Virus record (IMG/VR): IMGVR_UViG_3300032046_000233
Span: 1-23,038 of that record
Source of the DNA: a virus
Strand: one strand, 5' to 3'
DNA length: 23,038 bases
This document shows, in pieces, positions 4,898 through 21,577 of this stretch. Every line of letters begins with the position of its first letter. The stretch's first letter is position 1. The position numbers and the translations under genes are program-made. The notes under the pieces are model-generated. The model ran no database searches. It saw only the letters and a program-made list of their open reading frames with translations, and was not told the origin of the DNA.

Positions 4898-4907
4898 GGT
4901 GAGAACG

Positions 4908-5508: not shown

Positions 5509-7155
5509 ATGGCGAGTCCATCGGTAGTCGGCACCCCCATTGAGGGTGCCATAACAACGGCGGCATACGACTTCACCCCGACGTTTACCCAAACGACGGG
5601 GAACTTCGTTGTTATTTTTATCGAGACCGCCGTGTCGGTTACGATGGACAGCGTTGGGTTATTCACGCAACTTGAACCCGCCGATCCCGAGGAGCTGGCC
5701 CGCTTCTTTGTTTTATACAGGCAATTAACGGGGATAGAGGGCGGGGAGGTTCTAATATCCACCTACGACGCCATAGGCGACCCCATATTAACCAAAGCCT
5801 GTTGGGTTTCCTGCAACATCACGGCGCACTCGACGACGACCGCTCCCGTCAAAGGAACACTGGCAACCGGCACAAGTAACGAGCCACAATCTCCAGAACT
5901 CACTCCCGCCGGAGGAAGCAAGGATTTCCTCTGGCTCGTTGGCTTTGGACAGGATGGCGAGGAGGCCAACGACGACACTTGGCAGAACAACACGCCTACC
6001 GGAGAGGGGGGTGGATCGTATACACCTGCGCTCGGGTATCAGATAACCACCGGGACCGATGGTGCCGCATCGACCAACTGCCAGCTTTGTGTTGCCTATC
6101 GTGCGTACACGGGAACACACGATCACCCGACAGTTTGGAGTACAGACCAGTCAAAAGCCTGGCGTGCCCAAACGATAGCGATTTATCCGGCGGCTGCCGC
6201 TGCCGCTACAGGCCAAGTCGTAGCCGTCCAGGGGAACGTCACCTACAACCCGATGACAGGACGCCTCACCGCGGCGCAGGGCAACTTGACATACACGCAA
6301 AAGACGGGACGCATAACGGCGGCGAATAGCGTCCTAACCTACGACCGAATGACGGGGCGAATCGCCGCGGCGCAAGCGAACCTGACTTACAATCCCGTAA
6401 CCGCGGGGATGCTTACAGCCATCCAAGCGAACGTCGGCCATACGGAGGTATGGTATATCTTGCCCGCCCCCGGTAGCCCCACAGCCTATTGCACGCTCTC
6501 GGGGCAGTACAAAAACGAATGGACGAACCCGACAAACGCCTACACGTCAAACGGCGTCTACGCGACATCACTCGGTAACGACCCGACAAAAGACGAGCAG
6601 GACTATTACGCCTTCGATCTCTCGGCGATTCCGAGCGACGCCATCATCAAGGGAATTAGGGTCTATGTCTACGGGTCGTGTTCGTACGCGGGCGCGGTTA
6701 TGGATCTCGAGGCGCAGCTCTTGAAATACTATCCACCGGCTCTGCCGCCGCCCGATCCATATATCGAGCCGATTAGCGGGATCGGCCGGCTAGAACTCGT
6801 GGGATCGAGCATTACAAACAGATTCACCGGAACGACCGACACACTCGCCATCTATGGCGGCCAAGAAATCATGTGGGGTGGAACTCTAAGACGAGCAGAC
6901 GTCGTGCGGACAAACTTCGGCGTCTACTTCCGCACGAGATACGTCAGCGGGACCGATGGGCTTCGAGTCGATTATGTCGCAATGGACATATCCTACACAA
7001 CCCCGGCAATTCTCATGGGCGGATTCATTGTGAGAGCGCACGCGACAAAAGGTCTACAGCCATCGACGGGTGGAACCGATTCGATTGATACGAGCGCGAC
7101 ATCGGCAACGGTCACGTCTCATACCGTGCCGAAGGGATGGAGGAGTGTGAACTAA
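5509..7155 (+). CDS. Modular beta-rich virion protein with 16-aa repeats
   Basis: This 548-residue protein starts at ATG 5509 behind GAGGAGC. It has three parts. Residues 1-230 form a beta-sandwich-like domain of the type common in environmental phage surface proteins, running from GNFVVIFIETAV through a Tyr-rich middle to a WRAQTIAIYP end. Residues 235-315 are five tandem 16-residue repeats (consensus GRxTAAQxNLTYxxxT). Residues 320-535 are a second beta-rich domain with WTNPTNAYTSNGVYA and YYAFDLSAIPSDAIIKGIRVYV, a pattern shared with the N-termini of the two tail-tip proteins at 16422 and 17195. Its place between coat and connector genes suggests a head fibre or capsid surface protein, perhaps a glycan binder. 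No enzyme motif is visible. The role is inferred. Confidence 0.65.
   Translation: MASPSVVGTPIEGAITTAAYDFTPTFTQTTGNFVVIFIETAVSVTMDSVGLFTQLEPADPEELARFFVLYRQLTGIEGGEVLISTYDAIGDPILTKACWVSCNITAHSTTTAPVKGTLATGTSNEPQSPELTPAGGSKDFLWLVGFGQDGEEANDDTWQNNTPTGEGGGSYTPALGYQITTGTDGAASTNCQLCVAYRAYTGTHDHPTVWSTDQSKAWRAQTIAIYPAAAAAATGQVVAVQGNVTYNPMTGRLTAAQGNLTYTQKTGRITAANSVLTYDRMTGRIAAAQANLTYNPVTAGMLTAIQANVGHTEVWYILPAPGSPTAYCTLSGQYKNEWTNPTNAYTSNGVYATSLGNDPTKDEQDYYAFDLSAIPSDAIIKGIRVYVYGSCSYAGAVMDLEAQLLKYYPPALPPPDPYIEPISGIGRLELVGSSITNRFTGTTDTLAIYGGQEIMWGGTLRRADVVRTNFGVYFRTRYVSGTDGLRVDYVAMDISYTTPAILMGGFIVRAHATKGLQPSTGGTDSIDTSATSATVTSHTVPKGWRSVN
6211..6450 (+). repeat. Five in-frame 48-bp units (16-aa repeats)
   Basis: Units begin at 6211, 6259, 6307, 6355 and about 6403, the last with one extra codon. 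They encode GQVVAVQGNVTYNPMT, GRLTAAQGNLTYTQKT, GRITAANSVLTYDRMT, GRIAAAQANLTYNPVT and a degenerate fifth. The protein pattern is kept better than the DNA, so the array is old or selected at protein level. Confidence 0.85.
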
Positions 7156-7499
7156 TGCCACTGCCTATCAGTGTTCATTATGGCAAGGCCGACCGCGGGC
7201 CGGACTTCATTATCGAAGTGACTGAACGCGACGGGACGGTGAGAGACATCACCACCGCAACGAGTCCAAAATTCTATCTCTACGACTTGGTTAACGGAAC
7301 GCTCCTTGTGAACGGCTCGACGGACGGCGTGAGCATCGTTCCGACCAATCAGATAAAGCGGATTATTCAGCCAAGCGACACCGCCTCAGAAATCGAAAAC
7401 GCAGTGGCCTGGTTCACCTATACGCTTGCAGCCAAAGAGGAGTCAACTTACGCGGTGGGCTTCATTGTCTCCGAACGGTGGAAACGGGTGATGATCTAG
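7155..7499 (+). CDS. Small beta-rich structural protein, BppU N-domain-like
   Basis: This 114-residue protein starts at ATG 7155, overlapping the previous stop (TAATG) behind GGAGGAG. It shows a beta-strand pattern with short turns: DFIIEVTERDGTVRDIT, PKFYLYDLVNG, a DGVSIVP segment, then AVAWFTYTLAAKEESTYAVGFIV. This resembles the immunoglobulin-like N-terminal domain of baseplate upper protein BppU and the small proteins encoded at 10261 and 10588. In those families the domain links tail or fibre parts. The stop overlaps the connector start (TAGTG), so the two are probably translated together. The similarity is weak; head-tail junction or neck decoration is a guess from position. Confidence 0.5.
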   Translation: MPLPISVHYGKADRGPDFIIEVTERDGTVRDITTATSPKFYLYDLVNGTLLVNGSTDGVSIVPTNQIKRIIQPSDTASEIENAVAWFTYTLAAKEESTYAVGFIVSERWKRVMI

Positions 7500-7948
7500 T
7501 GGGAACCTATACCGATACAACGACCTTCGTTCAGACGTTGCCCGAGAACTCCATCGAGCGGTCTTTCGTGCGGGAGGCCGCGGAGATTGCGTACGAATAC
7601 ATCAACTCCGCCTTGGACGGGGTTTACGTCGTCCCCCTCACGCCAACGCCAAGCGTGATTGAAAAGGTCTCGAACCTCTTGACGCGGGCGATTGTTCTGG
7701 CGCTCGTCGCCAAGGGAACCGTCACAATCAAGGACATCAAGGACCGTAGTGCGATCGATCCGGTGCAATGGCTTCAGGACATACGCGCACGGAAGCTCTC
7801 AATCCCCGGCGTGACGGTGCTCGCCACTTCGGGGTCGTGGTGCAATACTGCAGATCAAATGCACATTTTCGACTTGGACAACGAAGTCTATCACCAAGCC
7901 GATTCAGACCGACTCGACGAGTTGCAAGACGACAGGTGGAGTTACTGA
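7499..7948 (+). CDS. Head-tail connector (gp6 / Mu gp36-like)
   Basis: This 149-residue protein probably starts at GTG 7499, which overlaps the previous TAG. An upstream in-frame GTG at 7478 has no ribosome site. The sequence has the helical layout of the gp6/DUF1320 connectors: an N-terminal sensor stretch (TTTFVQTLPENS), a helix EAAEIAYEYINSALDGVY followed by VVPLTPTPSVIEKVSNLLT, and a helical segment rich in Ala/Leu. These proteins form the ring under the portal that receives the tail. The C-terminal 50 residues are not recognised. The gene sits between head and tail modules, as expected. Confidence 0.65.
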   Translation: MGTYTDTTTFVQTLPENSIERSFVREAAEIAYEYINSALDGVYVVPLTPTPSVIEKVSNLLTRAIVLALVAKGTVTIKDIKDRSAIDPVQWLQDIRARKLSIPGVTVLATSGSWCNTADQMHIFDLDNEVYHQADSDRLDELQDDRWSY

Positions 7949-7975
7949 CACATTTGAGAATGTGTAGGTGTTTTT
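7948..7975 (+). terminator. Possible weak terminator or leader hairpin
   Basis: ACACATT (7948-7954) and AATGTGT (7959-7965) pair perfectly around TGAG, followed after five bases by TTTTT (7971-7975). The stem is AT-rich and the T-run is displaced, so termination would be weak. The spacer AGGTG is the likely ribosome site of the next gene, so the hairpin may instead tune its translation. Confidence 0.3.
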
Positions 7976-7978
7976 GAC

Positions 7979-8170
7979 ATGGAATACAACCCCGAGAAAC
8001 ACGGGAAGGTTCACCTGCATTGCGCGTGGCGCGGGACGTGCCGCAACTGCGGGTGGACGCTGGAAGCAACGGACGTGTGCGTCGGGGATGATACGCCCCC
8101 GGCGTTTGTCCCTTGCCCGCAGTGTTTGATGCAGGGCAAGTGGAGTTCGGTACGGGTGGTGCGGTCGTAA
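7979..8170 (+). CDS. Zinc-ribbon microprotein
   Basis: This 63-residue protein has two Cys pairs of zinc-ribbon type, CRNC (21-24) and CPQC (46-49), with additional Cys15 and Cys34 and His residues near the N-terminus. AGGTG lies eight bases before ATG 7979. Zinc ribbons of this size bind nucleic acids or stabilise protein contacts. Between a head-tail connector and a tail morphogenesis gene it could be a small assembly factor or an unrelated accessory gene. The spacing of four Cys is the main support that it is a gene; function is unknown. Confidence 0.6.
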   Translation: MEYNPEKHGKVHLHCAWRGTCRNCGWTLEATDVCVGDDTPPAFVPCPQCLMQGKWSSVRVVRS

Positions 8171-8196
8171 AGTAACGACGGGCGGCGGGGCCGCTC

Positions 8197-8892
8197 GTGG
8201 GCTGTGGGGCTGCGGTGGCGAACTTCGATACAGACTTTGGAAATCTCGCGGACTACGCATCTGGCGGGACGGGAAATATCGGACCTGATATTCCCGTGTT
8301 CGACATTGACTACCGTCAGATTGCATCCATCCCCAAGATTCTCGCCTACATGACAAAGCATGGCGGGAACCCCCGCGCCCCGCTCAAGCGTTTCAATGTC
8401 TACATGATCGGCCAGACCGACAAGACCTTCCAGCAGGGGGGTCGTAGCAATGTCCGCTGGCAACCGCTCGCGCCAATCACGGTCATCATGCGGAAGTATC
8501 GCGGGCGCGGGAGCGGGCGCACGCACCCGAAGCGAATCCTTCATGACTCTGGGCATCTCAAGAACGCAACGAACGAGCAGGTCATACAGCACGGCGAATC
8601 GCTCGCCTCTCGCATCTTCAACGACGTGCCTTACGCCAAGACGCACCAGTTCGGGGGGACGATCTCAATTCCAGAGAGAACCATCGAGGCGAAGAAAAAG
8701 AAGTTCCTGCACTTCTTCATTGCTGGTCACGAGGTATTCAAGAAGAGCGTGACAATACCGGCGTACACGAAACCCGTGCCTGCGCGCCCATTCCTTTTCT
8801 TTCTCGAACGCGATAAGGACCGGGCCGTCGAAATCCTACTCGACTACGCCGAGAAGGTATCAGGCCAGGCGGTAGACCAGGGGGCGCTATGA
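8197..8892 (+). CDS. Virion morphogenesis protein (Mu gpG / P2 gpS-like)
   Basis: This protein of up to 231 residues matches the phage virion morphogenesis (tail completion) family. It has WQPLAPITVIMRKY, then ILHDSGHLKNAT, then PYAKTHQFGG and, near the end, VPARPFLFF, the conserved order W-PL...ILxxxGxL...YAxxHQFGG...PARPFL. In P2 and Mu such proteins complete or join heads and tails. The start is unclear: GTG 8197 follows GGCGGCGGGG, while in-frame GTG 8215 would remove six residues. The gene ends in an ATGA overlap with the next one. The family call is confident; the 80-residue N-terminal extension (FDIDYRQIASIPKIL region) is not recognised. Confidence 0.8.
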   Translation: MGCGAAVANFDTDFGNLADYASGGTGNIGPDIPVFDIDYRQIASIPKILAYMTKHGGNPRAPLKRFNVYMIGQTDKTFQQGGRSNVRWQPLAPITVIMRKYRGRGSGRTHPKRILHDSGHLKNATNEQVIQHGESLASRIFNDVPYAKTHQFGGTISIPERTIEAKKKKFLHFFIAGHEVFKKSVTIPAYTKPVPARPFLFFLERDKDRAVEILLDYAEKVSGQAVDQGAL

Positions 8893-9395
8893 CCGCATAC
8901 GGAACCGGCACAAGTATCACGGAACTCTTGACTGCCATGCGGGACAAGGCGATGCAGGACACCGCCACGCTCGGATATTTGCGAGACGTGGGCGTGGCGC
9001 TCCCGCCGATGACCGGCGCGGTCCTCAACACGCCCAAGCTCTACATCGTATGGAGCGGTTCGCCCGAGGAAACGATTAGCGCAGAGAACGGCGTGCGCGT
9101 CAAACGCGCAACGCACCAAGTCACTTTGTACGCCGTCGTCTACGCAGCATCCCATGACGACACGGCGTCGATCCTGGGAGACGGATATCAGGTTGGGATC
9201 ACGAAGCTCGCCGAGGACGTGATCGACTTCTACGCCGGGAACACCCTCGGTTTGACTGGCCTGGACGCGGCAAATACGCCCGACATCCAAGCGGTCGAAG
9301 GATCATACGGCGTCTTTCCGACGCTCGACGACAAGTGGATGCACATAATCGGGCTCGTTTATTCGGCCCGTACCAAGCCCTTTGAACGGGCCTAA
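8889..9395 (+). CDS. Probable tail terminator / neck protein
   Basis: This 168-residue protein is translationally coupled to the morphogenesis gene (ATGA). Its layout resembles tail terminators: a long N-terminal helix (ITELLTAMRDKAMQDTATL), a beta section RATHQVTLYAVVYAASHD, then a helix GITKLAEDVIDFYAGNTLGL and a C-terminal strand HIIGLVYSARTKPF. Terminators cap the tail tube and set the joining end. In many siphoviruses this gene follows the connector and HK97 gp10/Mu gpG-like gene and precedes the tube gene, which fits, although five small genes separate it from the tube gene here. The assignment is mainly by position and fold pattern. Confidence 0.5.
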   Translation: MTAYGTGTSITELLTAMRDKAMQDTATLGYLRDVGVALPPMTGAVLNTPKLYIVWSGSPEETISAENGVRVKRATHQVTLYAVVYAASHDDTASILGDGYQVGITKLAEDVIDFYAGNTLGLTGLDAANTPDIQAVEGSYGVFPTLDDKWMHIIGLVYSARTKPFERA

Positions 9396-9422
9396 CAGAT
9401 CACTGACGGAGGTGAGGGGACG

Positions 9423-9860
9423 ATGGCGACGATGACACTTTACGTTGACGGAGACGTTGGGACTCCCGGTTGGGATTTCAGCACCGACACGGCGCATTAC
9501 ACGGAAATCGACGAGGGGACGGCTTCGCCCAACGATGCGAACTACATCGAAACGACGACTGCCGACGACGTGGACATCTTTTCATTCGGGGCGACCCCCG
9601 CGAACACGGACGTCGTGACGCAGGTGAACATCTCGATCCGCGGGAAGCTCACGGATGGGGGGAGCGCGGCGCACTTGCATGTTGAGCTCTGGCACACGGG
9701 CGACACCGTGCAGATCGGCGCGACGAAGGCAATCGTGGGTGCCGGCTTCGGCGGATACGGGACGCTGGGCACCGCAGCGGATCTCTCCTGGACGGGGCTC
9801 ACCCTTACCAAAGCGCAGGCCGATTCGATGACGTTGCACGTCATCTTCAAGGTCGCGTAA
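9423..9860 (+). CDS. Beta-rich structural protein, possible surface or lectin-like
   Basis: This 145-residue protein sits behind a strong site (GGAGGTGAGGGG before ATG 9423). The pattern YTEIDEGTASPNDANYIET, then a beta-sandwich with VTQVNISIRGKL, HLHVELWHTG and TLHVIFKV, is that of small beta-sandwich domains common in environmental phage genomes, related in style to the domains at 5509, 16422 and 17195. Gly/Thr/Asp-rich composition and no Cys suggest an exposed virion protein. No catalytic motif is seen. It could decorate the tail tube or neck; the function is not known. Confidence 0.6.
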   Translation: MATMTLYVDGDVGTPGWDFSTDTAHYTEIDEGTASPNDANYIETTTADDVDIFSFGATPANTDVVTQVNISIRGKLTDGGSAAHLHVELWHTGDTVQIGATKAIVGAGFGGYGTLGTAADLSWTGLTLTKAQADSMTLHVIFKVA

Positions 9861-9876
9861 GGGGGAGGCGATACCG

Positions 9877-10257
9877 ATGGCCGGAGAGGAAGCAAGAGTT
9901 ACTGCGGCGCTCGCCGACCTCACCTACGACGAGATGATAGGGCGGGTTGTGGCGGTGCAGGCCGACACGACGCACACGCTCAAAACTGGCCGAGTGACGG
10001 CGGTTAAGGCTGTGGCAACGGTCACGACAACGGGAACTGCTCTCGGAGACCCCGGCGCGCGCGTACATGCGGTACACGCCGTCGCGACGCGGCCAATCCA
10101 CCACAAGTCAGTCTATGCGGCGCCGATAAACAAGACGTCAACCCACGCCTCGCCGATTAACGCAACGCTGACATACAACGCGCCGCTTGACCCCGAGACG
10201 CTAGACAAAATCGAATCGCCTCCGCGCGGGGGCGACAAAGAACCGATGGAGGAGTAA
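9877..10257 (+). CDS. Repeat-only protein with 16-aa motif
   Basis: This 126-residue protein follows AGGGGGAGGCG and starts at ATG 9877. Residues 6-53 are three tandem repeats of the same 16-residue type seen at 6211 and 17696 (ARVTAALADLTYDEMI, GRVVAVQADTTHTLKT, GRVTAVKAVATVTTTG). After a seven-residue break a fourth diverged unit follows, then shorter imperfect units (YAAPINKTSTHASPIN). The last 25 residues are acidic and Pro-rich. There is no folded domain outside the repeats, so the protein may be an isolated linker or polymerising beta-repeat. It could also be the remnant of a larger modular gene. Confidence 0.6.
   Translation: MAGEEARVTAALADLTYDEMIGRVVAVQADTTHTLKTGRVTAVKAVATVTTTGTALGDPGARVHAVHAVATRPIHHKSVYAAPINKTSTHASPINATLTYNAPLDPETLDKIESPPRGGDKEPMEE
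9892..10104 (+). repeat. 16-aa repeat array, three perfect-length units plus one separated
   Basis: In-frame units start at 9892, 9940 and 9988, each 48 bp. A diverged unit at 10057-10104 comes after a 21-bp break. The third unit (GRVTAVKAVAT) most resembles the single unit at 19331 (GRVTAVNAVAT) in the tail-tip gene. Confidence 0.75.
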
Positions 10258-10260
10258 CCG

Positions 10261-10572
10261 ATGGCTGATAGCACAAACATCATCACCCTCCAGTCTTGGG
10301 GCCAGAAGATTGTCCTGGAGACTGGGGAAGACCTGACGAGCAACACGGGATTGAAGCTCATATTCAAGAATCCCGCCGGAACAACGGTGGAGAAAACCGC
10401 CAGCACGGACGCGGTGACGGGTGGAGACATCTATTGGGTATCGACGACGGACTTTTTCAGTTCGTTCGGGACGGCGGGCAACTGGTACGTCACAGCGAAA
10501 GTCACGTGGGCCGCTGCGGTGCTGTATTCGCGGCCCGTTCTCCTCAGAGTCGTTGACCAGTGGAGCGACTAA
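10261..10572 (+). CDS. Small beta-rich tail-region protein, paralogue 1
   Basis: This 103-residue protein starts at ATG 10261 behind GGAGGAG. It is a paralogue of the next gene: both have a WGQ(K/R)I start, a predicted strand with a D(L/I)YW- or VYWxST-like centre, GxWxVxAxVT(W/F), a YSRP/YTRP motif and a closing VVDQW/VNEW. The fold pattern is that of a small immunoglobulin-like or BppU N-terminal-like domain, as in the gene at 7155. Lying just before the tail tube gene, it is probably a minor tail or baseplate-linking protein. Function is inferred from pattern and position only. Confidence 0.6.
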   Translation: MADSTNIITLQSWGQKIVLETGEDLTSNTGLKLIFKNPAGTTVEKTASTDAVTGGDIYWVSTTDFFSSFGTAGNWYVTAKVTWAAAVLYSRPVLLRVVDQWSD

Positions 10573-10587
10573 CAAAAGGGGGGAACC

Positions 10588-10887
10588 ATGTCCGCGTCGT
10601 TGACGCTCAACAAAGAAGGGTGGGGGCAGAGAATCACGCTCCAAACCGGAGTGTCAATCTCCGGTTATAGCGCGCTTGACCTTGTTTTCTACCGGCCCGT
10701 TGGGGCCGAGGTTGCGGTCTCCGGTACAACCGCAGACGCCGAGGTGGGTGAAGTCTATTGGGATTCAACCTACCACTTCTGGAACGTACTCGGAGACTGG
10801 AAGGTCATTGCCCGCGTGACGTTTGGAACAGACGAGGTGCTTTATACGCGCCCGTACACAATCCACATCGTGAACGAATGGACGTAG
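10588..10887 (+). CDS. Small beta-rich tail-region protein, paralogue 2
   Basis: This 99-residue protein follows AAGGGGGGAACC and is the tandem partner of the preceding gene, with the same length and order of landmarks (GWGQRITLQTG, VYWDSTYHFW, GDWKVIARVTFG, LYTRPYTIHIVNEW). Sequences have diverged enough that the duplication is old. Two copies may form a heteromer or sit at different places in the tail. No other feature is visible. Confidence 0.6.
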   Translation: MSASLTLNKEGWGQRITLQTGVSISGYSALDLVFYRPVGAEVAVSGTTADAEVGEVYWDSTYHFWNVLGDWKVIARVTFGTDEVLYTRPYTIHIVNEWT

Positions 10888-10906
10888 TGAGGAAGGGGAT
10901 AAACAC

Positions 10907-11431
10907 ATGGCTCTGATGTACGACACCGGAAACATCAGCATTGGTGGTGCGACGATTGATATAAGCGCCGTTGGCGGCACTTACACTCAAAACGTCGGCT
11001 ACATCAAAGACGGCATAACGATCACGCCGTCGTTCGAGGTCTACGAGGTTGGCGGGATCGAGGGGCTTCCCGTCACCGTCAAGGTCAACCGGACCAAGAC
11101 GCAATACACGCTCAAGACGACGCTCATGGAGCCGACGCTTGGTAACGTGGCGAAGGTCTGGGACATCACCAGCAGCCCCACGTCGCCCATGAAGATTGAC
11201 GCCCCGGCGGCATGCGCGGAACGTAAGGTCAAGGTCACAAGCAACGGCCCGGCATCTGCGGGCGGGTCGCAGAAGGTGTGGACGTGGGAGTTCACGCGCT
11301 GCGTCGTCCAGAGCCCCGAGGCGTTGAAGATTGGCGACGCCGAAGAGTCGAAACTGCCCGTGAGCTTCATCTGCTTGTACGACACGGCAGGTGCGGCAAA
11401 CGCTGTCGGAACGATTACGATCGCCGCGTAG
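10907..11431 (+). CDS. Major tail tube protein
   Basis: This 174-residue protein has the size, position and strand-rich pattern of a siphovirus tube subunit: an N-terminal GNISIGGATIDIS strand pair, a loop with GYIKDGITITPSFEV, a long central beta-sheet with VTVKVNRTKTQYTLKTTLMEP, and a terminal strand pair with LPVSFICLYD. It is followed within 1.3 kb by the chaperone pair and tape measure, the usual order. The subunit polymerises as hexameric rings into the tail tube. It is preceded by GGAAGGGGAT and expected to be highly expressed. A near relative was not recognised, so the call rests on context plus fold pattern. Confidence 0.7.
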   Translation: MALMYDTGNISIGGATIDISAVGGTYTQNVGYIKDGITITPSFEVYEVGGIEGLPVTVKVNRTKTQYTLKTTLMEPTLGNVAKVWDITSSPTSPMKIDAPAACAERKVKVTSNGPASAGGSQKVWTWEFTRCVVQSPEALKIGDAEESKLPVSFICLYDTAGAANAVGTITIAA

Positions 11432-11446
11432 TACAGGGAGGAGAAC

Positions 11447-11878
11447 ATGGAACCGCTCATCGAGGGGATGCGAGTCGGGCGGGCGCCGGCGGTCGAGTAT
11501 CGGACTGGCGGCATGGCCGTCGAGGACATTCGGGACGCTGCACTCTTCACAGCAACCGGATACGTCTGGCCGAACTACCTCTGGCGACAGGGGAAGAACG
11601 TACTCACCGAAGAACGCAAGGGGCAGGAGCCGAATGGCATCGAGGTCTATCGCCGCAAGGATGAAGAGGGCGAAGAGTGGACCGCACTCTTCGTCTTCCT
11701 TGGGGACGTGGCCCTGCTCCGGCGTAGGCGATTCCTGTTCTACAACGGCGAGTTTTGGATTCCACCGTGGGTTCTTTCTGCCACCGAGGCGCGCCTGTGG
11801 GCGATGCGAGACGAAGAGATCGCCAAGGTAAAGATGCGTCTCGAGCGAAGAGACGAGGAGTTCACGTTTAAGGGATAG
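11447..11878 (+). CDS. Unknown protein between tail tube and chaperone genes
   Basis: This 143-residue protein starts at ATG 11447 behind AGGGAGGAGAAC. It contains EDIRDAALFTATGYVWPNYLWRQ, several Trp, a basic cluster LRRRR and a charged C-terminal helix (ARLWAMRDEEIAKVKMRLE). The composition is unlike the Thr/Gly/Ala-rich structural proteins around it and looks like a compact intracellular protein. No family is recognised. The position between tube and chaperone genes suggests an assembly factor, but this is only context. Confidence 0.65.
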   Translation: MEPLIEGMRVGRAPAVEYRTGGMAVEDIRDAALFTATGYVWPNYLWRQGKNVLTEERKGQEPNGIEVYRRKDEEGEEWTALFVFLGDVALLRRRRFLFYNGEFWIPPWVLSATEARLWAMRDEEIAKVKMRLERRDEEFTFKG

Positions 11879-11894
11879 AGGGGAGAGTGTGGGG

Positions 11895-12410: not shown

Positions 12411-12742
12411 CGTTCTCGAAGGCGCTCGTTACCGTGGGGCAAGCGTTCGGGAAGACCCCGCGCGAAGTCTACGAAACGATGGGACTGAACGAGTTCCAGG
12501 CCGCATACGGGGCACTCGCTCACATCGAGAACGCGCACTTCGCCCAAGACGTTCTTTCATCTATGTACGGGAGCCGTGCGGATGCAAAGGCAATAGACGA
12601 AATACTTTTGAAGCTCCGGTCATCGAAGAGCACAGACGAAGCGATTGACCGGGGGGCGATGCCGCTGCCCCCAGTCGAGATCACGACGGGCACACTTGAA
12701 GCCGAGGGGTTTGAAAGGGTTGAGGTAGGGGATGGCAAGTAG
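12341..12742 (+). CDS. Tail assembly chaperone, frameshifted extension (lambda T-like)
   Basis: This is the 133-residue extension read after the -1 shift; with 149 residues from the upstream gene the fusion would be 282 residues. The extension begins with a polar Gly/Asp/Arg linker (RPGHDAGDSPRGEDGRSGED) and then a helical domain, ALVTVGQAFGKTPREVYETM followed by NEFQAAYGALAHIE. No ribosome site or good start codon is seen at its upstream edge (only TTG 12317), which supports production by frameshift. In lambda the G part binds the tape measure and the T part recruits tube protein. The end overlaps the tape measure start by 11 bases. Confidence 0.7.
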   Translation, partial: RPGHDAGDSPRGEDGRSGEDSKLAFSKALVTVGQAFGKTPREVYETMGLNEFQAAYGALAHIENAHFAQDVLSSMYGSRADAKAIDEILLKLRSSKSTDEAIDRGAMPLPPVEITTGTLEAEGFERVEVGDGK

Positions 12743-15455
12743 ATCCGTCGAAATCTTTCTCATCGCAAACGCCGACAAGTGGATCAAGGGGATCGACAAG
12801 GCGACCGCGAAGGCCGACGAACTCGGTCGGGCGATACAGAAGCAGAAGAACATCGCGGACATGAGCTTCAAGGCGGGCGCGGCCCTGTTCGTGGGCGCCG
12901 CCGGGATGATCGCCGCCACCGTCGGCCCTGCGATCAAACTTGAAGACGCTGTTGGGCGCATCGCCGCACAGACAGGGCTGACGGGCGAAGCATACAGCGC
13001 CTTCACGAAGAAACTCTCCGCCGATACCAAGAAGCTCTCCGTTGAGATTGGGGCGTCCCTCGATTCGGTAATCTCCGCTTACGACATGGCCGTCCGTGAG
13101 GGGATCGACCCCGCTTCGGACTCCTTCGACAAGTTCGTCAAGCAAGCCCTCCAACTCGCATCTGTCACGCGCGTAGACCTTCCAACGGCCATTGCCACGG
13201 TCGATAATGTTCTCGACCGCTTCGGCACGACCCTTTCTAAAACCCCAGACGCAATGGATATGCTCTACCGCGCGTCACGTGCTGGCGAGACGGGATTCCA
13301 AGAGTTTACTAATACGCTCGCGCTTACGGCTCAGGCGGCGGGAGCGTTAGAGCTTCCACTAGACAAAGTGGCCGCCCTGATGGCGCTGCTGGGACAGCGC
13401 GGAATGACGGGATCGCGTGCGGGCATGGCAATGGGGCAGGCTCTTGCGCGTCTCGCCACGGCGAGCAAGGACAGCGCAGACAATCTCCACGCTCTCAAGG
13501 TCAATGTGCTTGATCCTACGACGGGCAAGGTGCGCGACCTTGCTGATGTTTTCTCCGATCTTCGCAAGGCAATACTCTCACTCCCAGAGGCGAAACGAGA
13601 CACGGTTCTAATGGAACTCCTCGGCCCTGCGGGGTTCCGCGTTCTCGGTGGACTCATCAAAGATGTCAACACCGATTTTAAGGGCATGTTCAATACCATC
13701 GCCAAGGGCAAGGGCATCAACGACGCCTTTGCCGAGAGCGCAAAATCCGCCGGGCACAAGCTCGACGTGATGAAGGCGTCGATCACCGCCGCACGAACAG
13801 AGATCGGCACGGCGTTTCTCCCGGTACTTGCAGAAGCCGCCGAAGGTCTATCAGGCGTTCTCAAGGCTCTCACCCCATTCATACAGGCCAACGCAGACCT
13901 CGTCGTCCCACTCACAGGCGCGGCGCTTGGGCTTGGCGCGTTCGGCATGGCCGCGGGCAAAGCAGCTTGGGCGGTCACGCTTCTCCGGGCTACATGGCCC
14001 GCGTTCTTTGCGCTGTTTGGTCCGTGGTCAATAGCAATAATGGCTGTCGTTACCGCACTATCCTTGGTCGCCCATTTCACAAAGGGTTGGACTGATAAGG
14101 TCAATGAGGCAAAAACGGCCTTGTCCGAGAAAGAAGCAAGGGCCGAATTACTGCGGGCGAAGATTAAGGAACTTGAGAGCCAACAGGCAACCTACAACAA
14201 GACGCTTGTGGATGGGACAATTCCGGGGCTCAAAGAAGCTAAAGCAGAGCTTGCCAATCTCACCGGAGAGGCGGACAAACTCCAAAAGAAACTAGCTGAA
14301 CTAAGGGGAGAGTGGGTCATACCCGAAACGCTACCCGGTGTTTCGGCGGCGCTCCAACAAGCATTTATAGACCTCTCTGCTGTTCAACGTCAAGCTAGAA
14401 CGGGGTGGGAGGGCGGAGAAGGCGCGCCCATATTTGCCTCACAGGGCGAAGAGATTGAGCGACTCCGGGCGTATATCGATGCGCTCCGCAACAAGTGGGC
14501 GGAACTTGCCACAACCCAGACCTCCGCTACCACCACAACTGACGCCCTGACTGGCGCCACAGTTGCGGGAACCGCCGCGGCCCTCGACAATGCCGACGCC
14601 GTAATGACGATGGGCAAGTACGTTGCCGAGTACGTCGCCAAGGCAAAGCAGGCAAAGCTCGAAGCGGGCTGGCTCGCAGCTCCTGGGGCTGCGGGTGCCG
14701 CGTTACCAACAGGGCCGGAGGAGCCCATAATTCCCCCGCTCGGAGAACAGGCCGCAGATGAGGTGGATCTAGTTCAATCCGAGTGGGCGCGTCTCCTTGA
14801 AAGCGGCATCTCGACGGCGGATCTCCTAGACACAGGATTCGGCGCAGCCCTCTCAGACATGGAGCCCTACGCGCAAGAGTTTGCGGACAGTTTCATCTAC
14901 AACTTTGAGCGCATGCAGGCCGAGGGGAAGAACGTCCTAAAATCCCTCGCCGCCTCTTTCGCCCTGGCGATGATGGACATGGTCAAGATGGCAATACACG
15001 CCGCGATCGCGCAGATCGTTGCGACGAAGATTGCGCAGGTGGCTATCGCGTCAATGCAGGGCTTTATGACGTTCGGCGCCTCGCTCCTTGAGATTGGACC
15101 CATTCTCGCCACAGCCGCCGGGGCCATTGCCGCCTTGAGTGGTTTGCAGAAGAAATTGGGCGGTTACGCAGCCGGGGGCATCGTTCCACAGACGGGTCTC
15201 GTTCTCGCACACGCGGGCGAGCGCATCATCAACCCTGCCTACAACACCGCAAGCGATCTAGTGAACATGCTCTCGGGTACGCGCCTGGCGGCGGCTTTGA
15301 CGCCGGTTCCCGTTGCTTCAGGCGCGGGCGCCCCTGGGATGGCCGCCGCCTCGTTCTACTTCCACATGCCTATCTACGGCAACGTCAACTCCGAACTCGA
15401 CATGGAAAAGGTTATGCGAAAGGCGGCTGACGTTTTCCGAAGCCGCGCGGGGTAA
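12732..15455 (+). CDS. Tail tape measure protein
   Basis: This 907-residue protein is the longest helical, Ala-rich product in the window. Residues 1-100 include ADKWIKGIDKATAKADELGRAI and a hydrophobic GAALFVGAAGMIAATV. Residues 75-330 show the PhageMin_Tail/TIGR01760 pattern, including GETGFQEFTNTLALTAQAA and MALLGQRGMTGSRAGMAMGQ. Hydrophobic stretches follow at about 390-455, coiled coil at about 455-530, and a second hydrophobic block at about 735-800. The end has the common GGYAAGGIVPQTGLVLAHAG and ERIINPAYN motif. The protein fixes tail length (about 136 nm by the 0.15 nm per residue rule) and is ejected with DNA. GAGGTAGGGG precedes ATG 12732. No lysozyme or peptidase motif was seen inside. 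Confidence 0.92.
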   Translation: MASRSVEIFLIANADKWIKGIDKATAKADELGRAIQKQKNIADMSFKAGAALFVGAAGMIAATVGPAIKLEDAVGRIAAQTGLTGEAYSAFTKKLSADTKKLSVEIGASLDSVISAYDMAVREGIDPASDSFDKFVKQALQLASVTRVDLPTAIATVDNVLDRFGTTLSKTPDAMDMLYRASRAGETGFQEFTNTLALTAQAAGALELPLDKVAALMALLGQRGMTGSRAGMAMGQALARLATASKDSADNLHALKVNVLDPTTGKVRDLADVFSDLRKAILSLPEAKRDTVLMELLGPAGFRVLGGLIKDVNTDFKGMFNTIAKGKGINDAFAESAKSAGHKLDVMKASITAARTEIGTAFLPVLAEAAEGLSGVLKALTPFIQANADLVVPLTGAALGLGAFGMAAGKAAWAVTLLRATWPAFFALFGPWSIAIMAVVTALSLVAHFTKGWTDKVNEAKTALSEKEARAELLRAKIKELESQQATYNKTLVDGTIPGLKEAKAELANLTGEADKLQKKLAELRGEWVIPETLPGVSAALQQAFIDLSAVQRQARTGWEGGEGAPIFASQGEEIERLRAYIDALRNKWAELATTQTSATTTTDALTGATVAGTAAALDNADAVMTMGKYVAEYVAKAKQAKLEAGWLAAPGAAGAALPTGPEEPIIPPLGEQAADEVDLVQSEWARLLESGISTADLLDTGFGAALSDMEPYAQEFADSFIYNFERMQAEGKNVLKSLAASFALAMMDMVKMAIHAAIAQIVATKIAQVAIASMQGFMTFGASLLEIGPILATAAGAIAALSGLQKKLGGYAAGGIVPQTGLVLAHAGERIINPAYNTASDLVNMLSGTRLAAALTPVPVASGAGAPGMAAASFYFHMPIYGNVNSELDMEKVMRKAADVFRSRAG

Positions 15456-15458
15456 TGA

Positions 15459-16418
15459 ATGAGCTACGAAGTCAACACGTATCGAATTGAACTGTGCTGC
15501 CCTGGGCTTGGAAGCGGTGCCGAGAATCCTGTTGTCGGGGCGCTATCAACCGAACGCCTCTCGCTATCGCAGTACGGGTTTCGCATCGCCAACCCCTACG
15601 ACATTGTGGGGAGCGTTCAGTCCTATCCGATACCGTTCAAGAACGGAGCGGGCGTCATCACAAGCGGATACCTCGGGGCGCACGACGTTCAACTCATGGG
15701 CACGATTTTCGATTCTACGTCGTATGGACTGTGGAACTCTATTGCGCGGGACTATCTTCTCCGCTGGCTTTCCATTGCCGCGATTCGGCGGGATACTTAT
15801 CTGCGCATTGGCCTCTGGAACGGCGCGACAATCCAATGGTTTCGGCTCTACTGCGTGCTTCGCGAGTCCAACATCCCATTTGTCCAGTATTCGCAGCTGA
15901 CAATAGCAACCCCGATTCAGCTCACGTTTTTCGCATACGATCCCGTGCTCTACGAGGATACCGAGGGGAGCGCCGACATCATTGTCGCCGCCGGGGCGGC
16001 GATGGGCCAGCACCAGCCGTTGAACGACGTGCCGCTCCAAACTGTTTTACTCCCACACCAAACCGGAGCCAACCGGCCCATATTTCGGAGCGTCTACACC
16101 TGGACAAATAGCTCGGGCGCAGACCTCACAATGGTTTCCGCGAACGACATTATGACGGGGAGCACCGCAACCATCACGGACACGATGGCAAACGGCCATA
16201 GCTTCACCATCGACAACTGGAACGGGCTTGTCTACGGGGGCGGCGCAACGAATATGACCAACCGCATGGACAAGTTCACCGGAAACTTCTGGTGGAGCGG
16301 GAACACGACGGCCCACTGGCATATCGATAGAGACCCGCACACCTACGCCCTGACGTTCAACATCAAGTTCTTGAAACCCGCTGCGAACTACTTTGTGACG
16401 CAGCGATACGCGGCATAG
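15459..16418 (+). CDS. Distal tail protein (Dit-like)
   Basis: This 319-residue protein follows the tape measure directly, the normal place of Dit. Its N-terminal half has strand-rich segments (NPYDIVGSVQSYPIPFKNG, HDVQLMGTIFDSTSYGLWN, LLRWLSIAAIRRDTYLRIG, QLTIATPIQLTFFAYDPVLY) in the order of a Dit tube-like domain with a QLxFxAYDP element typical of Sipho_tail proteins. The C-terminal half (about 190-319) is a beta-sandwich (FRSVYTWTNSSGADLTM to THWHID-like end) like the galectin-type domain of Dit proteins. Dit forms the ring joining the tube and tail tip. Start ATG 15459 lies within TAATGAATGAG just after the previous stop. Confidence 0.7.
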   Translation: MSYEVNTYRIELCCPGLGSGAENPVVGALSTERLSLSQYGFRIANPYDIVGSVQSYPIPFKNGAGVITSGYLGAHDVQLMGTIFDSTSYGLWNSIARDYLLRWLSIAAIRRDTYLRIGLWNGATIQWFRLYCVLRESNIPFVQYSQLTIATPIQLTFFAYDPVLYEDTEGSADIIVAAGAAMGQHQPLNDVPLQTVLLPHQTGANRPIFRSVYTWTNSSGADLTMVSANDIMTGSTATITDTMANGHSFTIDNWNGLVYGGGATNMTNRMDKFTGNFWWSGNTTAHWHIDRDPHTYALTFNIKFLKPAANYFVTQRYAA

Positions 16419-16421
16419 ACG

Positions 16422-17189
16422 ATGGTTGTTACCCTATATAAGTCACCAACAACAAGCGGTGGAGTTATTCAGCAATGGACCACGCCACAGAATGTTTACG
16501 CAACCGACAACGCTGTTGCCACCGCCGGGAATGGACTAAGCAATAGTTATGCTGGCTTTGGTTTCACGGCACCGGAGGTTTTTCTTTGTTCCGCAATCAA
16601 TGGGTTTGAGGTGTCCTGTGAGGCAAAAAATAGCGGCACCTCTGGAAACAACCGGCTTGACGTATGGCTAATCAAAGGCGGCGTAAAACAGTCAACGACA
16701 TTAACAAACGCGCAATCGTGGACGACGACAACCGACGCCGCAAAGGTATGCGGATCGTCGTCCGATACCGCCGGGGTTGTGTGGACGGCGAACGACGTCA
16801 TCGATCCGGGATTTGGAATATATTGTACGATGGTTACTGTTTCTGGTACGCGCAACCTGCTGGTCGATCAGTTGAGACTTAGAGTATACGTCACCCCCCC
16901 GAGTTTCTTGGATGTGTTCCCAGGGGAAGGAGATGCCTCGATCCCTGGATATGTTATGCGAGCCAAGAAATGCGCGGTATGTTCTACTAGGGCTTATTAC
17001 GCCCACCACTATTCTTCTCCGCAACGCCTGTTGAATCCAAGTCGTTGTCCTCATTGTTCCAGCGCCATTTCGTATGTATGTAAAGCGCACCAGGCTAATC
17101 CGGTGGTTCCGGCCAACCACACATGGAGCTTTGTAGAACCGGCAACCACGGTATTTTGGAATAGATTTATGGAACTGGAGCCGGTTTAG
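16422..17189 (+). CDS. Lectin-like tail-tip protein with C-terminal zinc ribbon
   Basis: This 255-residue protein has two parts. Residues 1-165 form a beta-sandwich whose first 65 residues match the tail-tip protein of the next gene (VTxYKxPTxxG, WxxPQxxYxxD, SAINGFEV, and a closing LRLRVYVTPP). Residues 180-230 hold a zinc ribbon, CAVC (184-187) and CPHC (209-212), 21 residues apart, with Cys and His nearby (YVCKAH). Such a ribbon at the end of a phage tail protein is unusual. The gene reads as less GC-rich than its neighbours (29 of 60 G/C in bases 16981-17040), hinting at recent gain. It could be a receptor-binding or baseplate decoration protein with a metal-stabilised tail. The ligand is unknown. 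Confidence 0.65.
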   Translation: MVVTLYKSPTTSGGVIQQWTTPQNVYATDNAVATAGNGLSNSYAGFGFTAPEVFLCSAINGFEVSCEAKNSGTSGNNRLDVWLIKGGVKQSTTLTNAQSWTTTTDAAKVCGSSSDTAGVVWTANDVIDPGFGIYCTMVTVSGTRNLLVDQLRLRVYVTPPSFLDVFPGEGDASIPGYVMRAKKCAVCSTRAYYAHHYSSPQRLLNPSRCPHCSSAISYVCKAHQANPVVPANHTWSFVEPATTVFWNRFMELEPV

Positions 17190-17194
17190 CGGTC

Positions 17195-20100
17195 ATGTCT
17201 GTTACTGCCTATAAAGGTCCAACCGCCGACGGGCAGATCATTGATGCCTGGAACAACCCCCAGTATGCATACACCATAGACGTGCTTTATTGGGCCATAT
17301 GCTCGACGTGGGACCCTCCGACCAATGCCGAGGACTTCTATCATTTTGACTTTACATCTTCTGACATCCCCGCCGGATCAGCCATTAACGGTTTCGAGAT
17401 CGAGATTACCGGCCACAATGGGACCACGGCATGCACAACAAACATGCATTGCAAGATGGTCAAGGACTCTACTCACACCTACGGGGATGAATATGCATAT
17501 CTGAGTGTGTTCGACTCGGATGAAACGATCACGGTTGGGAGTTCAACCGAGCTGTTTGATACGACCTGGACACAGGCCGAAGTGGTTGCCGACACGTTCG
17601 GCGTCAAGGTCTGGCCTGTCAGGATTACAACAAGTAGTTGGCACGCATGCCATATCAACGCGGTTCGTATTCGCGTTTACTACACGAAACCGACGGCCAC
17701 GGTCACCGCTGCACAGGCCGATCTCACCTACACGATTCCGACGGGTCGGGTAACTGCAGGGCAAGCTGATCTCACTCACTCACTTAAAACGGGCCGTGTC
17801 ACTGCAGGGCAAGCTGATCTCACTTACTCGCAGAAAACCAGTCGCGTCACGGCGGCCCAAGCCGATCTCACTCACTCGCTTAAAACGGGCCGCGTCACTG
17901 CAAGCCAAGCCGATCTCACTTATACAGAAACAGGAGAGCCAGAACCTAGCCCGCCGATAAAGCCGTCGGGAACCTTCTACTACATCAAATCGGGTGGCAA
18001 CAACGCGAGCGCGGGAACATCTTGGGCAACCGCCTGGGCGGACACGGACAAACTCCACACACTCTATCCCCTTCCCTGCCCGATAACAAGCACCGATTGC
18101 ATCGTCATTCGGTCGGCCACCTACATGCCGACCTTAACCGTGATGATTTGGAAAAGCCAAGTCACCATCGTCTCCGAAAAACAAGCCGTCGCCTACCTGT
18201 GGATCGACCAGGACGCCGAATACATCAACGCGGTGCCGGTCATCGATGGGACGAACATTCTCGACAACACGGGCGGGCGCAACCCGTACTCACAGGACAT
18301 TCTCGCGCTCGACGTGCCGGGGAACCGCGGCGGCGGAGTCGAGAACGACTGCCATAGCTTCACGCTCGACGGCATCAATCTCATCAACGGCAAGCGGAAC
18401 GGTTTTTGGACTTCCTGCGTCACGGGTGGCACACGCGCATACAACGCCTTCCATGAGATTCGCAATTCAACCATAAGCTACTGCGCAGCGACCGGCGTTT
18501 ACGGTCGACAAGCGAATGACTTCTATCTCCACGACGTCGAGCTCCACCATAACGGGGATGGCGTCGAGGCGCATCTTGTCCACGCCGTCTACCTCAATGA
18601 CTCGGACAACGTGCTTATCGAAGACGCGATTGTCCGTGACACGTTGAACGCCGGGGCAATCCACCTAAACGGCGACAAGGTAAGCGGCGTTCAGGGGTTC
18701 ATGCGGAACGCCATCGTGCGCCGGTCAAAGTTCTGGAATAACAAGGGCGTCGACATCGACCTCTACAACGCCATCGGCGGGCGGGTCGAGAACAACGTCA
18801 TTCATACGCCGCTTGCCACCACGACCCACATCAATTCGCTCATTTACGTCGGCGTCGACGCGTTGGGTGTACCCTTCCCCCAACCGTCAAACGGCGTCGA
18901 GATCGTCAACAACACTCTCGTCTGTGCCGCAACCCAGAACGACGCCATTCGCCTGGGTTCATCGCCGGGAGAGGCCAAGAACTGCGTCGTCTTCAATAAC
19001 ATCGCCGTAACCGCGGATGGGATAGCGGCAACATCAATCATCTCCGACTCCACCGACAACCACACCATCGTGCCGAATAGCGTTGTAGCGTACACAACCG
19101 GGAACCTTACGGCATGGTTCGTGGACCCGCTCAATGCAACACTTGCGTCGAGAAACTATCACCTGAAGGTTGGGGGCCCGTTTTTTAACGCTGGCGCGAA
19201 CTCCGTCTACAATTCGGAAACCGGAACGGTCTTCGCGCCGCTCGAAGACTATGACGGACTCCACCGACCGCAGGGCGCGGGATTCGACACGGGCGCTTTC
19301 GAGTATCCCGTGGCAGGCCCCACAGTCTACGGGCGGGTCACCGCCGTAAACGCGGTCGCAACCTACACAGAACTCCCGTGGGAACGTGCCTCATTCGCGC
19401 CGCTTCAAACCTTTCAGCTCGAAGACTATCGCATAGACTTCATGTCGTGGGCAGGCGCGCGAAAGGACTCCGTTCAACGGGCCTCTGGATACAACCCACT
19501 CACGTTTCTCGACTTCAAGTTGAACGCAAACGGCGGCTGTGGAGACGCAACGATAAAGCTCCTACGCGAGCGCGTGCCCGGCCCCCCGCGTGCGGCACAG
19601 TTCGGATACCTCATGGAGCCCGGCGATGTCGTGGACGTCTGGCTCCATTCGTGGTACTTCGGGGACGCACTATTGCAGTGGTATCAGGGTGTAATCACGA
19701 AGGTCGAAGACCCCGAGGGATTCGGGGATACCATCACGATTGAGGCGCGGGGCATATGGGACGAGATCCTCGAGAAGCGCCTGGTGACGAAATACTACGA
19801 GGGGAAGGCCATCAATGTCATGGTGGCCGACATTCTCGCAGACGTGGCCGCCGAGAGCAGGATATCGACCTCCACGGCGGGAATCGTCGTTACTTCCCCG
19901 TACACTATCGACGACGTGGAGTTGGAACTCACGTCGGTTGCCGCTGCAATCGAATCCCTTGCCGCTGTTCAGGGGAACATCCAGTACGGCATAGACCCGT
20001 CTGGCGTGTTCTACTTCAAGACGCTTGATGCTACAACGAAACTCACGGCGCAAGTGGGGGTGAACGTATCCGATTACAAGAAGCACGGCGAATCGAATGA

Positions 20101-21577
20101 CGTGACAAACCACTACCTTTTGCAAGCCAAGCAACTCGTCGGGGGTGCAAACCTTATTCTCTCGCGTGAGGACGGGGTGTCGATAGCGACCTACGGCCGG
20201 CGGACGAAGATCGTCCAGGCAACAGGGCTACAGAACATCTCTGATCTCTACCGATACGGCGACATGCTTCTCGACGAATCGGCAGAATACAAGGATCACG
20301 TTGACGTTGAAGTGACCGGGGACGTGTACTACCTATTCCCCCGCGGCAAGTGCAACGTGGCGAAGCTCGACAAGACGTCGCTTCCGCTAGACATCCAGTC
20401 TGTCAGATACACGTTCGAGGGTAACGGCAAAATGACACTTGGCTTGGGAGACGCGCCCGTCTCGACGCTCTCCGACGAGGTGAAGCGCATTTCTCGGAAC
20501 ATCTCCGTCGGCAAACAGACGGCCATGTCGAACACGAAGATTGAGCACACGAAAAGCGACGAATGGACCCAGACCGTCCGCCTTGACGCAGGCAAGCAGG
20601 GGAACCTCACCGTTTACTACGACATCTTCCCCGACGAAACCGGACTCGATCAAGCGCGCTCCCACGGGTACACCTTCGACTCCAGACGCGGATTTATGCG
20701 AGCGGGGCCTGAACTCGCCCCAAACTCCTGCTCGATTCAATCCCAAGCTATTCCCATCGGTGTTCAGGTGGACACGATCCGCGTCTACACGAATACGAAC
20801 CTTAACGGCATGATCGACTTCAACACCGGGGACGATATCCGCGATTACTTCACACAGCCGGACTCGGGACTGTGGGCAATCTCCGACCTGGGGAGCTACC
20901 TATACGATACCCGTGATCCGGCCGGATCGTTCCTTACGTTCGATGGGGATAAGTACATCTACCCGACGATCTACTTTGTGAGACTGACAGGCTTCACCCA
21001 ACTTCCCACGCCCACTGGCGAGGTCGCGTGGATCATTTGGAACTACCATGCCGACGACGGCATCGACCCGGAGTCGTATCACTACATCAAAATCTACGCA
21101 ACGGCCACGACGGGTCAATTCGAGATGAAGACGTACGACGGATCGACACACACGCTCGTTAACGGTCCCATCGCGTCGAACGATATCGGAAGAATTGATC
21201 TCGAGGTTCGGCACTCGGGGACGGGGAACACCACCGCCGCCCTATACCGCCGGTCAACCGGGGCTTTGCGAGGTACGCTCACGGGATCGCTCACGTCCTA
21301 TGCCTTCCGCCCACCGAAGCTCTTCAACTTCGGGAACCCCTACGGACAGCAACCGTGGATTGTGGATTCGATTGGTCTCACGCGCTTGACGAAGTGCGAC
21401 GTATACGCCTCGCGTGACGGCGGAACGACGTGGACGCTTGCAACTATCGCAGATGGGGAGACCGTCGTGGACGTTGACGTATCGACGCAACCGGCGGGTT
21501 CAACGATATGCTTGAAAGCGGTTATGCAGTACCCGTCGCGGCTAAACGGATGGGGCTGGTCCGCGAAAACGAGCTAG
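17195..21577 (+). CDS. Mosaic tail-tip protein: beta-sandwich, repeats, beta-helix, hub domain, ConA-like end
   Basis: This 1460-residue protein is an assembly of modules. Residues 1-165: beta-sandwich paralogous to the preceding gene. Residues 168-247: five 16-aa repeats (GRVTAGQADLTHSLKT type). Residues 260-705: right-handed parallel beta-helix, from FYYIKSGGNNASAG with Asn-rich turns (NCVVFNNI, IEIVNNTLV-like) to a GLHRPQGAGFDTGAFEY end typical of secreted bacterial beta-helix proteins. Residues 713-726: one more repeat. Residues 730-1100: baseplate hub (gp27/Tal-like), with LEDYRIDFMSW, PGDVVDVWLHSW and DTITIEARGIWDEIL. Residues 1210-1395: ConA/LamG-like domain. The hub should close the tube; the beta-helix probably binds or degrades surface glycan. 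In known Tal proteins the hub is N-terminal, so this order is odd. Confidence 0.8.
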   Translation: MSVTAYKGPTADGQIIDAWNNPQYAYTIDVLYWAICSTWDPPTNAEDFYHFDFTSSDIPAGSAINGFEIEITGHNGTTACTTNMHCKMVKDSTHTYGDEYAYLSVFDSDETITVGSSTELFDTTWTQAEVVADTFGVKVWPVRITTSSWHACHINAVRIRVYYTKPTATVTAAQADLTYTIPTGRVTAGQADLTHSLKTGRVTAGQADLTYSQKTSRVTAAQADLTHSLKTGRVTASQADLTYTETGEPEPSPPIKPSGTFYYIKSGGNNASAGTSWATAWADTDKLHTLYPLPCPITSTDCIVIRSATYMPTLTVMIWKSQVTIVSEKQAVAYLWIDQDAEYINAVPVIDGTNILDNTGGRNPYSQDILALDVPGNRGGGVENDCHSFTLDGINLINGKRNGFWTSCVTGGTRAYNAFHEIRNSTISYCAATGVYGRQANDFYLHDVELHHNGDGVEAHLVHAVYLNDSDNVLIEDAIVRDTLNAGAIHLNGDKVSGVQGFMRNAIVRRSKFWNNKGVDIDLYNAIGGRVENNVIHTPLATTTHINSLIYVGVDALGVPFPQPSNGVEIVNNTLVCAATQNDAIRLGSSPGEAKNCVVFNNIAVTADGIAATSIISDSTDNHTIVPNSVVAYTTGNLTAWFVDPLNATLASRNYHLKVGGPFFNAGANSVYNSETGTVFAPLEDYDGLHRPQGAGFDTGAFEYPVAGPTVYGRVTAVNAVATYTELPWERASFAPLQTFQLEDYRIDFMSWAGARKDSVQRASGYNPLTFLDFKLNANGGCGDATIKLLRERVPGPPRAAQFGYLMEPGDVVDVWLHSWYFGDALLQWYQGVITKVEDPEGFGDTITIEARGIWDEILEKRLVTKYYEGKAINVMVADILADVAAESRISTSTAGIVVTSPYTIDDVELELTSVAAAIESLAAVQGNIQYGIDPSGVFYFKTLDATTKLTAQVGVNVSDYKKHGESNDVTNHYLLQAKQLVGGANLILSREDGVSIATYGRRTKIVQATGLQNISDLYRYGDMLLDESAEYKDHVDVEVTGDVYYLFPRGKCNVAKLDKTSLPLDIQSVRYTFEGNGKMTLGLGDAPVSTLSDEVKRISRNISVGKQTAMSNTKIEHTKSDEWTQTVRLDAGKQGNLTVYYDIFPDETGLDQARSHGYTFDSRRGFMRAGPELAPNSCSIQSQAIPIGVQVDTIRVYTNTNLNGMIDFNTGDDIRDYFTQPDSGLWAISDLGSYLYDTRDPAGSFLTFDGDKYIYPTIYFVRLTGFTQLPTPTGEVAWIIWNYHADDGIDPESYHYIKIYATATTGQFEMKTYDGSTHTLVNGPIASNDIGRIDLEVRHSGTGNTTAALYRRSTGALRGTLTGSLTSYAFRPPKLFNFGNPYGQQPWIVDSIGLTRLTKCDVYASRDGGTTWTLATIADGETVVDVDVSTQPAGSTICLKAVMQYPSRLNGWGWSAKTS
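17696..17935 (+). repeat. Five near-identical 48-bp units (16-aa repeats)
   Basis: In-frame units start at 17696, 17744, 17792, 17840 and 17888. They encode ATVTAAQADLTYTIPT, GRVTAGQADLTHSLKT, GRVTAGQADLTYSQKT, SRVTAAQADLTHSLKT and GRVTASQADLTYTET-. The DNA is very similar between units (GCAGGGCAAGCTGATCTCAC occurs twice), so this array expanded or was homogenised more recently than the one at 6211. Confidence 0.9.
19331..19372 (+). repeat. Single copy of the 16-aa repeat between beta-helix and hub
   Basis: GRVTAVNAVATYTE is encoded directly after the beta-helix end and before the hub domain. With the array at 17696-17935 it brackets the beta-helix. It is closest to a unit in the gene at 9877 (GRVTAVKAVAT). 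Confidence 0.75.

Follow-up and report, generated by a model that had tools for sequence, protein, structure and literature searches.

Donor-strand complementation is familiar from chaperone-usher pili, type 1 and Caf1 among them. Whole accessory domains are a known decoration of phage virions, and how the number, place and exchange of such parts are controlled is poorly understood. In siphophages, for example the 936 phages, accessory carbohydrate-binding and Ig-like domains are dispersed over the virion proteins (PMC6669499), and a survey of domain mosaicism in phage tail proteins described shared fragments of at least 50 amino acids (PMC10684548). In the viruses described here, a selected 11-residue strand occurs in 1-21 copies in unrelated proteins, always together with a small gene, g11, which suggests a two-part mounting system.

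A 16-residue repeat in several virion genes

The window, by which we mean the whole stretch of DNA analysed, is the 23,038 bases of IMG/VR virus record IMGVR_UViG_3300032046_000233. It holds the structural half of a siphovirus: a head maturation protease, scaffold-like paralogs, a major head protein, neck and connector genes, a tape measure, a gene at the distal-tail position, and g22, which encodes a tail protein of 1460 aa, has a parallel beta-helix in its middle and matches a tail-protein profile at residues 827-1041. Several paralogs adjoin one another in this layout. Three tandem proteins of about 133 aa lie at 1757-3002 (one matches PHROG 673, head scaffolding; the sister virus has two), a tandem pair of paralogs whose N-termini are hydrophobic and signal-like separates the major head protein from g6 at 4301-5501 (the sister has a single counterpart), and g13 and g14, adjoining paralogs of about 100 aa at 10261-10887, are both present in the sister. 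A tRNA-Thr gene (TGT) lies at 400-475, past the end of the first ORF and ahead of the gene for the head maturation protease; the sister virus pieces and the other array viruses examined carry no tRNA-Thr gene.

A 16-residue unit with the core R(V/I)TAxxAxLTY is present in five copies in g6, three to four in g12, and five plus one in g22. The features concerned are the following.

5509-7155, plus strand: g6, with a lineage-specific N-domain, an array and a C-terminal jelly-roll-type domain (about 6454-7020)
6211-6453, plus strand: g6 array, four 48-bp units at 6211, 6259, 6307 and 6355 and a weak fifth at 6406
9423-9860, plus strand: g11, a predicted beta protein of 145 aa and the proposed docking partner
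9877-10257, plus strand: g12, a stand-alone array ORF of 126 aa, mostly repeat, starting 16 bp past g11
9892-10104, plus strand: g12 array, three 48-bp units (9892-10035) and a degenerate fourth (10057-10104)
16422-17189, plus strand: g21, a jelly-roll-type domain and then a CxxC segment
17195-17695, plus strand: N-terminal jelly-roll-type domain of g22, whose last strand, HINAVRIRVYY, continues into the first unit
17696-17935, plus strand: g22 array, five 48-bp units, preceded by the N-terminal domain and followed by the beta-helix domain
17960-21577, plus strand: remainder of g22, a parallel beta-helix and then a tail-hub region
19331-19378, plus strand: single g22 unit, between the beta-helix and tail-hub parts

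The preliminary description had placed an in-frame repeat in several genes of the window, and this was confirmed at the positions listed. In order to avoid circularity, a unit matrix was trained solely on arrays from three other viruses; it recovered 12 units in the window (six in g22 and three each in g6 and g12), with an expectation from 200 shuffled proteomes of 0 for the nine best units, 0.01-0.02 for two and 0.25 for one. The first and fifth units of g6 and the fourth of g12 were not significant by the matrix alone and were accepted because of their position only. Most spacings are indeed 48 bp, as had been described, but one spacing in each of the arrays of g6 and g12 is not: the weak fifth unit of g6 (6406-6453) has one extra codon ahead of it, giving 51 bp, and the degenerate fourth unit of g12 follows at 69 bp. 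Likewise g12, which had been listed among the structural genes as consisting almost entirely of repeat, is mostly repeat, but at 126 aa it is no large gene. Tandem Repeats Finder detects the g22 array only. Thus, only this array is repetitive enough in its DNA, and the remaining arrays are protein-level repeats.

The repeat had been put forward as unnamed, and it has stayed so: in Pfam, NCBIfam, PHROGs and PDB sequences the window array regions had no accepted or significant match, and the array of L006 had weak matches only, to unrelated or uncharacterised families. No description of this repeat was found in a literature search of open-licence papers. A search of IMG/VR, phages and plasmids for close homologs of the window array yielded nothing real; matches in Aeromonas plasmids were rejected, as they run antisense to a gene that is annotated there. 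A strict DNA pattern for two units had zero matches in the genomes of 84,980 bacterial and archaeal species, and the sole match to a looser pattern, a DNA tandem repeat on a Lentisphaerae contig, was discarded, as it does not encode the unit. The array was not found in 50,697 phage records. The repeat family is rare, if perhaps only in its exact form.

Array-bearing relatives and the partner gene g11

Scanning degenerate DNA patterns for two or three tandem units over 2.9 million viral contigs led to four more array viruses.

G001, IMGVR_UViG_3300031746_000136: syntenic sister of the window
G002, IMGVR_UViG_3300002120_000013: array virus
G003, IMGVR_UViG_3300027814_000019: array virus
G004, IMGVR_UViG_3300022665_000047: array virus

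Two further candidates from the three-unit scan, L013 and L015, were rejected as stop-containing tandem repeats.

Copy number varies among relatives, as the comparison of array lengths proposed at the outset bears out. Homologous tail proteins carry 21 units in G003, 2 in G004 and 0 in both G005 and G006, the latter two proteins being 83% identical to that of G003 outside the array. The 21-unit protein is homologous to PHROG 1082; its relatives occur in 367 phage records, and among the matches listed the match starts at a query residue of at least 347, past the array. Between the window and G001 the counts are 5 versus 6 in g6, 4 versus 5 in g12, 5 versus 0 in the g22 array and 1 versus 1 at the late g22 position. 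Several virion genes thus carry the repeat module, and its presence varies between relatives, as it does for phage accessory or decoration modules; by gene position, the array genes sit among head, neck and tail genes.

Each of the five array-bearing viruses has a g11 homolog, which lies upstream of an array gene at a distance of 0-2 genes. Searching IMG/VR with a g11 profile returned the other four array viruses and one contig, L045, that carries a fusion of a g11-like domain with a different array; there (10001-11395) the g11-like domain has its terminal strand and is accompanied by units of about 20 residues, YSGxIPLxxxPSYLSxLEK. When all window genes were compared with G002, G003 and G004, g11 and the array were the only matches, and g11 and the array are also all that G002 has in common with G003 and G004. 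The array is inherited with g11, a co-inheritance of two components that the preliminary description had not noticed. Because g11 accompanies the array even in viruses that are otherwise unrelated, the array is probably a mounting rail that can be changed and not a passive linker.

We rank first, as a tentative choice, the explanation that the array serves as a rail on which several copies of g11 dock, and we infer the binding of g11 to the units. In its favour stand the purifying selection on the core in the best arrays, the variable copy number, the co-inheritance with g11, the block exchanged between G003 and G005, the likeness of the unit to a terminal jelly-roll strand, and a similar layout in distant phages. 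On this reading each unit is one copy, in a tandem series, of a beta-strand of 11 residues under selection, R(V/I)TAxxAxLTY, with five free residues between, and virion proteins with such units built in would hold several copies of the small beta protein g11. In the most likely mode, g11 would be a jelly-roll that stops one strand early, and each unit would donate a strand to it in trans by donor-strand complementation. Beads of g11 would then follow one another about every 16 residues along the array, the number of units would set the bead count on a neck, tail or tail-tip protein, and gain or loss of the array would go along with gain or loss of g11.

From its sequence, g11 appears to be a jelly-roll without the last strand, and the unit appears to resemble that strand. 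Complete jelly-roll-type domains end with the strand pattern V..V.L.V.Y, and the unit matrix ranks this terminal strand first to fourth of about 150 positions in six of the seven complete domains (Fisher p 9e-7, too favourable a value, since the domains are related to one another and strands of a generic kind show this pattern too). In alignments of g11 with L045 and, at low gap cost, with the complete family, the last strand of g11 falls on the penultimate strand; g11 is then short by about 30 residues, including the terminal strand, a result that depends on gap cost. These placements count less for docking in that the alignment to the complete family is weak beyond the first half of g11, that MAFFT, contrary to the low-gap-cost alignment, sets the last strand of g11 on the terminal strand, and that g11 paralogs that also stop early are present in the array-less G005 and G006. 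A profile comparison of g11 with the complete family without L045 was not significant. Also speaking against docking, two known phages with a g11-like truncated domain had no units in the flanks of that domain. By motif, too, g11 ends at the penultimate strand: like it, distant proteins of other phages that combine LamG with a jelly-roll stop at a WT..(E/D)(V/I)...FG(V/I)K strand. One of them, L017, repeats the layout of the window: its g11-like domain ends ..WTVTSVNAMEAGYELVT, and the next gene carries three units of RVTNVHGQVLY, a peptide that scores above most non-array peptides.

Two further arrangements were seen around domains of this kind. A second g11-like gene, also ending early, lies at 4503-4979 in G003, 4616-5071 in G004 and 8337-8804 in G005 (oriented coordinates); it is kept in the array-less viruses, directly before the tail protein, whose N-terminus has a lone DRI(T/A)TYT stub. 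In Brevundimonas phage Gurke (L054, 2268-4435), which like L017 resembles the window in layout, two RVT-type units form the end of a lectin-like gene, and the gene directly after it has a jelly-roll-like domain that goes no further than the penultimate strand.

Alternatives to docking

The explanation that we rank second, and regard as possible, is that the units need no partner in order to fold: they would stack into a beta-rod (a solenoid or meander, possibly oligomeric) that spaces surface modules, with a length set by copy number, and g11 would be a neighbour, cap or decoration independent of the units. The preliminary description had spoken of a beta-bead and proposed structure prediction for a multi-unit chain. 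AlphaFold models of the window array have one strand of 11-12 residues per unit (pLDDT mostly in the 60s to low 70s), and ten units of G003 are modelled as continuous beta structure (pTM 0.65, pLDDT up to 86), for which the nearest PDB folds found by Foldseek were mostly beta-solenoids and beta-helices (tapirin, FHA, HxuA). No fold match was significant: every Foldseek match to the ten-unit model had an E of at least 1 and a probability of at most 0.11, and the first model gave meaningless matches only (rmsd 7-33 Å). A self-folding rod would also suit the near-constant period of 16 residues in four viruses and the amphipathic cores. It fits less well with the isolated unit at 19331, which is conserved together with its counterpart in the sister, as are short arrays, and it leaves unexplained why g11 is the only other shared gene. 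Perfect repeats readily become solenoids in folding programs. Tandem repeats yield such models easily, so that self-folding stays a serious rival; that the ten-unit chain is predicted alone as continuous beta fits a rod equally well, and to that extent counts against docking.

A simpler explanation of the co-inheritance is that g11 and the array are mere neighbours on a transferred segment, the array being a generic accessory and g11 having a separate role. The DNA of G003 and G005 is 82% identical except for one block, which runs from 14 bp before g11 to about 30 bp past the last unit and which in G005 contains neither g11 nor the array. Treating the joint absence in G005 and G006 as two losses was rejected, as the DNA shows one exchanged block that counts once. 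The ends of the block fall at g11 and at the array, which speaks for docking. As a single event, though, the exchange agrees with hitchhiking as well and does not tell a shared function from mere linkage. However, in G002, G003 and G004 the arrays are embedded in different large tail genes, and the one or two genes that lie between g11 and the array are unrelated and are not shared with the window. Mere hitchhiking is on this evidence improbable.

Neutral or near-neutral tandem expansion, which would leave a flexible linker, has in its favour that copy number is variable and that the linker residues are nearly free. At residues identical between units of a 20-unit array, codon agreement was 0.42 versus 0.41 at random; the codons are no more alike than chance would make them, and the units are therefore old. 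Synonymous sites are saturated between units of one array. In the best arrays, those of window g22 and L006, the 11-residue core has a pN/pS of 0.15-0.18 and the 5-residue linker one of 0.70-0.75, and the core is under strong purifying selection. The g6 and L004 arrays show no such contrast between core (0.45 and 0.38) and linker (0.34 and 0.30). Saturated synonymous sites together with a conserved core exclude simple slippage and argue against a merely flexible linker, and one core is conserved across four viral lineages. Neutral expansion is thus refuted in its simple form and very improbable altogether, and "linker," the word used for the repeat at the outset, is too weak a term.

The domains that flank the arrays have changed places between relatives, as had been expected of them. 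In G001 the g6 homolog consists of an N-domain that is 41% identical to the N-terminal domain of window g22 (array included), an array, and a C-domain that is 49% identical to that of window g6; its g22 starts at window residue 262, without the N-domain and array, and in its complete length is 44% identical to the remainder of window g22 (17960-21577). The N-terminal domain of g22, g21 and the C-domain of g6 form one paralogous jelly-roll-type family (28% identity between the g21 domain and that of g22, E 6e-19), and g21 is missing from the corresponding place in G001. Because G001 carries a g22-type N-domain before its g6 array, the array is a seam of domain exchange between genes. The suggestion that the array lets modules join and swap is accordingly right as to where the moved domain is joined, but the array DNA is not the cause: arrays of different genes, within or between the window and G001, share exact words of at most 9-13 bp, and the seam therefore acts at the protein level. 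That array DNA itself drives the exchange by homologous recombination is, with such short words, scarcely credible, even though the arrays stand at the junctions of the exchanged domains.

Comparison with described systems

Docking, if true, would also account for short-strand arrays of a broader class, so far without explanation, in the tails of metagenomic phages, and would put a modular display rail on offer. In its general form, which we consider doubtful, the proposal is that there are tandem donor-strand arrays, strings of jelly-roll last strands each of which would complete one copy of a truncated jelly-roll, so that neck, tail and tip proteins could bear a changeable number of identical beads; the same principle would apply to other short-strand arrays near truncated jelly-rolls. 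In the tail tubular protein of phage ctype202 (MW202473; L032, 2968-5229) the same jelly-roll-type domain is followed by a long array whose unit is a different one, LSVNSKSLRLTPSSVxLxR, of about 22 residues. The arrays of MW202473 (about 22 aa), L045 (about 20 aa) and L017 (16 aa) are like that of the window in that short tandem strands stand directly behind a beta-sandwich domain, jelly-roll or LamG-like, in phage structural proteins. They differ in unit sequence and mostly in period; the likeness is one of layout, and homology to the unit of the window would be conjecture. The beta-solenoid proteins tapirin, FHA and HxuA resemble the ten-unit model weakly in fold, with no significant match, and none has this unit.

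As in the chaperone-usher pili, an incomplete beta-sandwich would be completed in trans by a strand of another protein. Unlike in those pili, the strands would stand in tandem on virion proteins, with no chaperone, usher or secretion, and the completion itself is something that we infer. With the accessory domains of siphophages the repeat shares the occurrence of one type of module in neck, tail and tip proteins and its variability between relatives; those modules are whole folded domains, whereas here a strand of 11 residues makes up the arrays, and the partner has a gene of its own. Finally, as in the mosaicism of tail proteins, domains are exchanged between the structural proteins of related phages, but in this case the seam is marked by a short repeat, with which a partner gene is co-inherited.
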